Below are positions 60,123 to 63,291 of a stretch of DNA of 64,000 bases, piece by piece; positions within the stretch are counted from its first letter, which is position 1, and every line of letters starts with the position of its first letter. The notes below the pieces were generated by a model, which ran no database searches, was not told where the DNA came from, and saw only the letters and a program-made list of their open reading frames with translations. The translations under genes were made by a program, and so were the position numbers. This DNA comes from an uncultured Prochlorococcus sp. (GTDB lineage Bacteria; Cyanobacteriota; Cyanobacteriia; PCC-6307; Cyanobiaceae), in NCBI GenBank assembly GCA_902560875.1, contig CACENO010000002.1:43864-107863 (forward strand), in the 5' to 3' direction.

Positions 60123-60554
60123 TTGCAGAGGTTGAGATTTAAAAGCCTTAGGATGGTCGATCAAAACTCCGGACTCTCGATTCGCCAACATCAAATTTTG
60201 GAGGAACTTGAGGAATGTGATGATGAAATGAGTGGGCAACAACTTTATCGTGCGTTGCAAGAAGGATCTTCTCGAATGGGTTTGACAACCGTTTATCGCA
60301 ATTTGCGAGGGCTTCAGCAAAAAGGAATGGTGCGATGTCGTAACTTGCCTACAGGTGAGGCTCTCTATGCTCCAGTTGCTAGAGATCAGCATCATTTGAC
60401 ATGTGTTGACTGTGGCCAAACGATAGTTTTGAAGTTTTGCCCACTCAATAATCTTGATTTGCCCAAGGCTCAAACAAAGAATTTCGAATTGTTGTTCCAT
60501 ACTCTTGAATTCTTTGGCCTTTGTAAAAACTGTTCTCAGCTTAAAAAAACATGA
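60123..60554 (+). CDS. Fur-family metal-responsive regulator (Fur/Zur type)
   Basis: RQHQILEELEECDDEMSGQQLYRALQEGSSRMGLTTVYRNLRGLQQKGMV; CVDCG...CKNCS zinc-site cysteines; start probably ATG/TTG near 60123-60153. Confidence 0.9.
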   Translation: MQRLRFKSLRMVDQNSGLSIRQHQILEELEECDDEMSGQQLYRALQEGSSRMGLTTVYRNLRGLQQKGMVRCRNLPTGEALYAPVARDQHHLTCVDCGQTIVLKFCPLNNLDLPKAQTKNFELLFHTLEFFGLCKNCSQLKKT

Positions 60555-61007: not shown

Positions 61008-61081
61008 CGGGGCGTGGCGCAGTTTGGTAGCGCGGGTGCTTTGGGAGCACTAGGTCGCAGGTTCGAATCCTGTCGCCCCGA
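61008..61081 (+). tRNA. tRNA-Pro(TGG)
   Basis: CGGGGCG/CGCCCCG acceptor stem, anticodon loop CTTTGGGA (TGG), T-arm GGTTCGAATCC. Confidence 0.95.
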
Positions 61082-61418
61082 TTAGGTTTTTGGTGATCTC
61101 GAATTGGGATTGGGCCCTCATTGGGCCCTCTTGCACTATTAGTTCTGAATCCTGATGTGTCACTGACAGGAAAAATGCTGAGCAGTTACGGGCAATTAGA
61201 GAGTCGCTGAATGCGCTTGAAGGCGGCAGGGTTATTGATGTTTGAGCTTTGATTTGAAATCGAAAATTAAAACTCACGGCTGGTTGATCCACAACCTATG
61301 AGATAAAAATCGCAAAATCTAAATTTTCTACATATTTGCCACCCAAGAAAGCGTGGGTGAAGCACTTCTTGGAAGACAAACAAAAAACAAAATTGAAATG
61401 AAAACGATTAAGTACGGA

Positions 61419-61613
61419 TTAAGAACAAGGCTTTGCTGCATTCTTACAACTCTTTTTCAGATCAGCTATCCAATCTTCTAATAATTGGAGCGCTTCAAGA
61501 TCTAATTTGTAGTACACCCAACGTCCGCTGTGACGGTCTGTAATTAATCCAGAGTCTTTAAGAACTTTGAGATGAAATGATAGGCGTGATTGTGCAAGAC
61601 CTGTCTTTTTCAT
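61419..61613 (-). pseudogene. ArsR-family repressor, 5'-truncated remnant
   Basis: KTGLAQSRLSFHLKVLKDSGLITDRHSGRWVYYKLDLEAL is the recognition helix/wing of ArsR; the N-terminal half, including the usual Cys metal site, is missing. Confidence 0.75.
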
Positions 61614-62521
61614 CTGTTCCTGAAACGCCGGAAGAAGAACAGAAAGGTAAAAAGCAATTATTCAAATGGGTTGCGGTTCTAACAGGTTCCAAAAATGCTC
61701 TCAAGGGTGTGGGATTTTTTCTGGGTGGAGTTTTACTGATTAGTTTTGGTTTCAATAAGGCCGTTGGACTAATAATGGCATTTGGCCTGGCTCTGTCTTT
61801 TGTTTTGACTCTGGTCTTGCCTGGTGATATGGGGCGCATGAAGAAGAAGCCGATGTTTAAAGATCTATTTTCAAAATCCAAAGGGATCAACGTACTTTCA
61901 ATGGCACTTTTTTTTCTCTTTGGAGCTAGAGATGTGTGGTTTGTCGTTGCATTACCTGTTTTTCTAGAGACATCTCTTAACTGGAACTTTTCAGAGATTG
62001 GAGCTTTTCTAGGACTATGGGTGATTGGTTACGGCTTTGTGCAGGCTTTAGCTCCCACTTTAAGGAATGTCTGGGGAAAGAAATCAAGCCCAGGAGTTTC
62101 CACAGTCAAGTTTTGGAGTGCTGTTCTTACAGCAATTCCTGGACTCATCGCTATTGCGTTGTGGAGGCAGAGTGATCCAGGCATTGCTATTACCGCTGGC
62201 TTAATTGCTTTTGGAGTGGTTTTTGCAATGAACTCATCTATCCATTCCTACATGGTATTGGCATATACAGATGAAGAAAATGTAAGCCTTAATGTTGGCT
62301 TCTATTACATGGCGAATGCGGCGGGCAGACTTCTTGGGACATTGCTCTCAGGAGCTCTATTCGTGCTTGGAGAAAATGCCGATCAAGGTATTCAAATTTG
62401 CTTATGGTGCTCGTCATTATTTGTCTTTTGTGCCTGGATAATCAGTCAAGGTATGCCTGATTCCGAAGCGACAACAACGTCCTTCAGGTGGTGGAAGACC
62501 GTTATGGGTTTATGGCGTTAA
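61577..62521 (+). pseudogene. arsJ: ArsJ-type MFS organoarsenical efflux permease, N-terminally truncated
   Basis: LFKWVAVLTGSKNALKGVGFFLGG...ALFFLFGARDVWFVVALPVFLE matches ArsJ core; N-terminal TM helices absent; in-frame stop just upstream of the ORF start. Confidence 0.78.
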
Positions 62522-62571
62522 GACTTTTCCTACATAGGGTATGTAGTGATGCCCATCCTTTTTTATGACAT

Positions 62572-63291
62572 ATGTCAGGCAATTGGATTGTTGTTGAAGA
62601 AGGTTCAGTTCCATTGCGTTGTTGGTGGAATAACCCTGACCAAAACAGTAACCATATAGTCCTTGTTCTCCCAGAGGTTTTTGGTGTTAACAGCTGGGTA
62701 AGAAGTGTTGTTGATCGACTGGCTGATTATGGGTTCGCTGCATTGGCAATGCCACTCTTTGCTCGAACAGCTCCAGAGTTGGAGCTTGGTTATAGCGAAG
62801 AAGATTTAGTAGAGGGCCGACGACACAAAGAACTCACTACGACCGAGCAGATTCTTGCCGATGCTTCTGCAGCTATTGCTTGGTTAAAACAGCAAAACCA
62901 ACAATCAAAGATCACGGTCGTTGGATTTTGTTTTGGTGGTCATGCTGCACTGATTACTTCAACACTCCCAACAGTCAGCTCCACTTTTGACTTTTATGGT
63001 GCAGGCGTGAGTATCAGTCGGCCTGGTGGTGGTTCGCCCAGCTTGGAATTACTCACAACTGTTTCCGGAGAATTGACTTGTTTATGTGGCACCTCTGATC
63101 CTCTAATTCCCCTATCTGATCGAACCTCAATACAAGAAGCCTTGAGGAAAGAAGATCCAGAAGGAAAACGATTGACCTATATCGAACTTGAATCAGCCGA
63201 CCATGGATTTATGTGTGAACAACGTGCGAGTTTTAATGCCAAGGCTTCTGAACTTGGCTGGGGTTTACTTCTAGAGAAGCTGAATGCTTAG
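62572..63291 (+). CDS. Dienelactone hydrolase family protein
   Basis: VLPEVFGVNSWVRSVVDRLADYGF, VVGFCFGGHAAL, SADHGFMCEQRASFN. Confidence 0.92.
   Translation: MSGNWIVVEEGSVPLRCWWNNPDQNSNHIVLVLPEVFGVNSWVRSVVDRLADYGFAALAMPLFARTAPELELGYSEEDLVEGRRHKELTTTEQILADASAAIAWLKQQNQQSKITVVGFCFGGHAALITSTLPTVSSTFDFYGAGVSISRPGGGSPSLELLTTVSGELTCLCGTSDPLIPLSDRTSIQEALRKEDPEGKRLTYIELESADHGFMCEQRASFNAKASELGWGLLLEKLNA

Follow-up and report, generated by a model that had tools for sequence, protein, structure and literature searches.

Towards the right end of a 64,000-nucleotide stretch of DNA from an uncultured Prochlorococcus sp. (the window; contig CACENO010000002.1), two short open reading frames overlap head to head, one related to ArsR and the other to ArsJ. 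We asked whether this arrangement is a working short form of an arsenate-resistance locus, the remains of a broken one, or a joint created during amplification or assembly of the genome. As set out below, the locus is very probably dead, the outcome of one 1,722-bp deletion together with two flanking deletions in a tRNA-Pro island.

Two overlapping partial genes

Among the open reading frames of the window, the minus-strand frame occupies 61419-61613 (64 aa) and the plus-strand frame 61577-62521 (314 aa, open through 314 codons), and they overlap by 37 bp, which confirms both the positions and the overlap given in the original prediction. The minus-strand product matches positions 34-74 of the 77 in the NCBIfam ArsR/SmtB profile NF033788 with 49.2 bits, below the cut-off of 55 bits, and thus falls short of a complete winged-helix domain. 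The plus-strand product matches only positions 124-390 of the 392 in NF033734 (MFS_ArsJ, NCBIfam), its 353.4 bits lying below the curated cut-off of 400 bits, which stands for a full-length match; it is not a full-length ArsJ. That both matches start inside their profiles agrees with the earlier view that the 5' ends of both genes are gone. Judged by its family matches, the plus-strand frame is an ArsJ fragment by descent, and its first 12 residues read antisense arsR, since nearly all alignments to relatives begin at query residue 13 or 14. In annotation, neither frame should be entered as a working ArsR or ArsJ. The features between the tRNA gene and the next intact gene, a hydrolase gene whose product shares 97% protein identity with the AG-463-F15 (G006) copy, are collected in Table 1.

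Table 1. Features from tRNA-Pro to the hydrolase gene, in window positions
Feature	Position	Strand	Evidence or remark
tRNA-Pro(TGG)	61008..61081	+	ARAGORN; left border of island
Remnant of region upstream of CobW-type GTPase gene	61168..61374	+	87.7% to L138 2673-2883 and L163 4528-4318
Junction 1, short filler without match	61375..61408		alignments stop at 61374, resume at 61409
arsR 3' remnant (recognition helix, wing, C-terminus)	61409..61614	-	94.7% to L031/L032 4072-4277
Junction 2, 1,722-bp deletion point	61614..61615		nucleotide alignment to intact loci
arsJ 3' remnant, 3' two-thirds of gene	61615..62459	+	96.3% to L031 6000-6841
Junction 3 (62460-62468), then end of an unrelated gene read out of frame	62460..62529	+	alignment to G003, G008
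Dienelactone hydrolase family gene, intact, right neighbour	62572..63291	+	PF01738, 113 bits

The missing 1,722 bp and the state of the remnants

The closest ArsJ matches, at 96-97% protein identity, come from two single-cell genomes, Prochlorococcus AG-463-F15 (locus L031) and AG-363-C20 (L032), in both of which arsR (minus strand), a complete GAPDH gene (gap3, 342 aa) and arsJ (415 aa) follow in succession. In AG-363-C20, reading of the ORFs by eye places zinc-uptake genes to the left of the ars genes and a phosphate-binding protein and a CRP-type regulator to the right. In homologues of this locus, the shared promoter is repressed by ArsR, the arsenic-associated GAPDH forms 1-arseno-3-phosphoglycerate, and ArsJ is an exporter of arsenate or its ester. 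The var operon of V. cholerae (arsR-varG-varH-arsJ) likewise combines ArsR, an arsenic-associated GAPDH and ArsJ in arsenate resistance, whereas the cyanobacterial counterpart lacks varH and has arsR in divergent orientation, and its copy in the window is broken (PMC9601151 for the operon). Mutation of arsJ in V. cholerae causes greater sensitivity to arsenate than mutation of the GAPDH gene (PMC9601151); in the window genome both arsJ, as an intact gene, and the arsenic-associated GAPDH are gone.

The remnants share their genes and divergent layout with the AG-463-F15/AG-363-C20 locus, to which they are 94-96% identical at the nucleotide level, but unlike it they are without gap3, the promoter, the ArsR N-terminus, ArsJ TM1-4 and the ArsJ C-terminus. 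When the nucleotides are aligned with the nearest intact loci, the switch in homology, which had been predicted near 61606-61618, falls exactly at 61614/61615. Both halves align to L031 on the strands and in the order of that locus (Table 1), and exactly 1,722 bp (L031 4278-5999) remain unmatched between them. Of arsR this segment takes in 227 bp (about 75 codons, with the cysteine metal site, CVCDLM in relatives) and of arsJ 389 bp (about 130 codons, TM1-4); between the two come the divergent promoter region and the whole of gap3. That the length divides by three is coincidental, arsR and arsJ lying on opposite strands. Since the intact relatives are collinear with both halves and carry the 1,722 bp between them, one deletion explains the fusion. 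A single deletion of both 5' ends and the shared promoter, with loss of the ArsR thiol metal site and of N-terminal TM helices of ArsJ, is what the original prediction had proposed, and its guess that a GAPDH gene went with them is borne out by the complete gap3 of the relatives. The junction was absent from 399 other genomes of the family, 7 of them of the genus, in a search allowing up to 3 mismatches, and none was found in viral contigs; as none of these relatives carries the same fusion, the comparison leaves the proposed deletion standing.

What is left of arsJ begins at the equivalent of about residue 131 of the 415-aa AG-463-F15 protein and stops short of its last residues. With the first 130 residues go the earliest hydrophobic segments, taken to be TM1-4 from the hydropathy of the intact relative, and the remnant does not amount to a complete 12-TM MFS permease. 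The ArsR remnant differs from all close relatives by E to K and Q to H changes, and the arsJ remnant carries one extra codon that is not seen in 18 aligned relatives. The remaining arsJ frame had been thought otherwise intact; it is not, for Leu stands at the position of the invariant Arg227 (84 of 84 distinct ArsJ sequences), and at about 62460-62468 the 3' end runs into the tail of a foreign gene in another reading frame. Homology to arsJ stops at about 62460, leaving the frame without its natural end, and the window matches G003 from 62469 (91%) and G008 from 62468 (88.6%), in sequence that ends directly upstream of the dienelactone hydrolase gene.

The pairwise dN/dS of the arsJ remnant to AG-463-F15 is 0.10, and its private changes, 3 nonsynonymous and 9 synonymous, are alone no proof of relaxed selection. 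The dN/dS check that had been suggested thus gave no overall signal of relaxed selection, while the invariant-site change and the codon insertion did give one. With a ratio of 0.10, most of the divergence would be older than the loss, and the loss is therefore probably recent relative to the divergence.

Probable erosion of a tRNA-Pro island

Directly 3' of tRNA-Pro, a stretch of 1.1 kb contains three junctions, at about 61374/61409, 61614/61615 and 62459/62468. In AG-463-F15 (G006 contig C21, here L134), tRNA-Pro, arsR-gap3-arsJ and the hydrolase gene stand in the order of the window over about 13 kb. On G001 contig C23 the sequence is tRNA-Pro, cobW region, ars genes, again spread over about 13 kb; another fragment of tRNA-Pro follows past ars, about 22 kb away from the tRNA. 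The CobW-type GTPase gene, named by eye from its sequence, lies about 6.3 kb before arsR in L138 and G001; the region upstream of it, collinear with the ars genes in L138 and L163, persists in the window, where the cobW gene itself is missing. The 3' part of tRNA-Pro recurs (repeats of 61037-61097) within the relatives' islands, and contig C32 of the window genome has one more copy. A border tRNA, 3'-tRNA repeats and variable content in relatives together characterise the region as a tRNA-associated island, which spans about 13 kb or more in relatives and about 1.5 kb, from tRNA-Pro to the hydrolase gene, in the window. Because the islands of relatives hold these genes kilobases apart, this part of the window can be understood as a variable metal/phosphate island of which about 1.5 kb remains.

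Tycheposons and other tRNA-bordered flexible islands of Prochlorococcus, as described at second hand in PMC10872708, resemble the window locus in having variable cargo by a tRNA and repeats of the tRNA 3' end; a list of seven tRNA genes has been published for them. Next to the window locus no integrase or intact element was seen, and none of the nearby window ORFs was recognised by eye as a tyrosine recombinase gene. On contig C32 of the window genome, a 45-bp copy (98%) of the tRNA-Pro 3' end stands without a complete tRNA (L159 1456-1500) and is likely a former attachment site of an island. In the AG-463-F15 contig, tRNA-Pro and its flanks occur at both ends in inverted orientation (L134 1-356 and 16621-16976), an arrangement suggestive of an artefact of amplification or assembly. 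To the left of the tRNA, a gene for a Fur-family (Zur-like) regulator at 60123-60554 has 59% protein identity to an AG-363-C20 gene about 5 kb beyond arsJ, which suggests rearrangement among the island's zinc genes.

In the order of events that we infer, the ancestor would have carried arsR (minus strand) divergent from gap3-arsJ (plus strand) inside the tRNA-Pro island. The 1,722-bp deletion would have joined the 3' part of arsR head to head with arsJ from about codon 130, taking the metal-site motif, the promoter, gap3 and ArsJ TM1-4. A left deletion on the cobW/znu side and a right deletion on the side of the phosphate genes would have stripped the remaining island, the right-side event also swapping out the ArsJ C-terminus.

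Competing explanations and arsenic genes elsewhere

It is unlikely that the joint at 61614/61615 is a whole-genome amplification or assembly chimera of a single-cell genome whose ars locus was intact in the cell. Several features would suit it: the nearest relatives are single-cell genomes, the window assembly (G000; 1.36 Mb) is of a kind that would fit with its 49 contigs and 74% completeness, the AG-463-F15 contig has terminal inverted repeats of the artefact type, and the joint occurs in one genome only. However, a study of 475 amplification chimeras counted just 11 direct joints between segments under 10 kb apart, and 2 or more complementary bases were present in 90.9% of such joints (PMC1855051), whereas the joint considered here is direct, spans 1.7 kb and has zero bases common to both sides, with L031-L033 standing in for the ancestor. 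Two other junctions bracket it, the remnants are altered at invariant sites, as expected of genes already dead, and the lost piece has left no trace elsewhere in the assembly. A direct joint without overlap, the two other junctions and the invariant-site changes therefore favour, short of proof, a biological deletion. That the ars fragment was already truncated when it recombined into the site, the deletion having arisen in another place or lineage, is very improbable; dispersed island repeats and tRNA-Pro fragments speak of much recombination in the region, and the arsJ of the window has scattered variants in common with several lineages, yet the order tRNA-Pro, cobW region, arsR, arsJ is that of G001 and fits decay in place.

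The frame open through 314 codons and the low pairwise dN/dS with relatives could also speak for expression of a short ArsJ (start 61577) with some transport or regulatory role, an idea raised in the original prediction. We consider this very unlikely, because TM1-4, the promoter and the invariant arginine are lost. Its partner GAPDH is missing as well, its start lies inside antisense arsR, its C-terminus is foreign and out of frame, and scans for promoters and terminators around the fusion returned no more sites than shuffled sequence. There is a slighter chance still that the fused locus has been kept as a minimal arsenate- or phosphate-related membrane protein, with either the antisense overlap or TM5-12 of the truncated ArsJ still active.

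In the window assembly, the arsJ match is the only one, and the sole GAPDH related to gap3 is a housekeeping enzyme at 43%, while four relatives have a gap3 homologue at 96-100%; the GAPDH gene that neighbours arsJ in the intact relatives is thus absent from this assembly. The Acr3 profile had zero matches in the window assembly (74% complete) and five relatives, and no convincing ArsM was found in the window assembly, the top score being 31 bits where the cut-off is 263. As this assembly is 74% complete, missing genes could sit in gaps. A second arsR-like gene of the window genome (L158 1515-1798, contig C30) was considered as a backup and rejected, as it is split by a stop or frameshift; contig C30 also bears a very long ORF (about 1,222 codons) in which surface-protein-like motifs recur. 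In another Prochlorococcus genome, G035, arsJ has independently decayed to a fragment interrupted by stop codons at L132 7096-7412 (contig C5), and a second ars locus runs off a contig end (L133). As this separate lineage also has a decayed arsJ fragment, decay of the ars locus has probably occurred more than once.

The locus is thus best read as a fairly recent pseudogene, left over from a tRNA-Pro island undergoing erosion. Arsenic and phosphate genes are already known to be gained and lost among Prochlorococcus populations, a theme to which this locus adds a case of ordinary genomic-island decay and neither a new principle nor a new gene type. It would represent a base-resolved example of arsenate detoxification lost by deletion in a streamlined ocean cyanobacterium, within a tRNA-Pro island.
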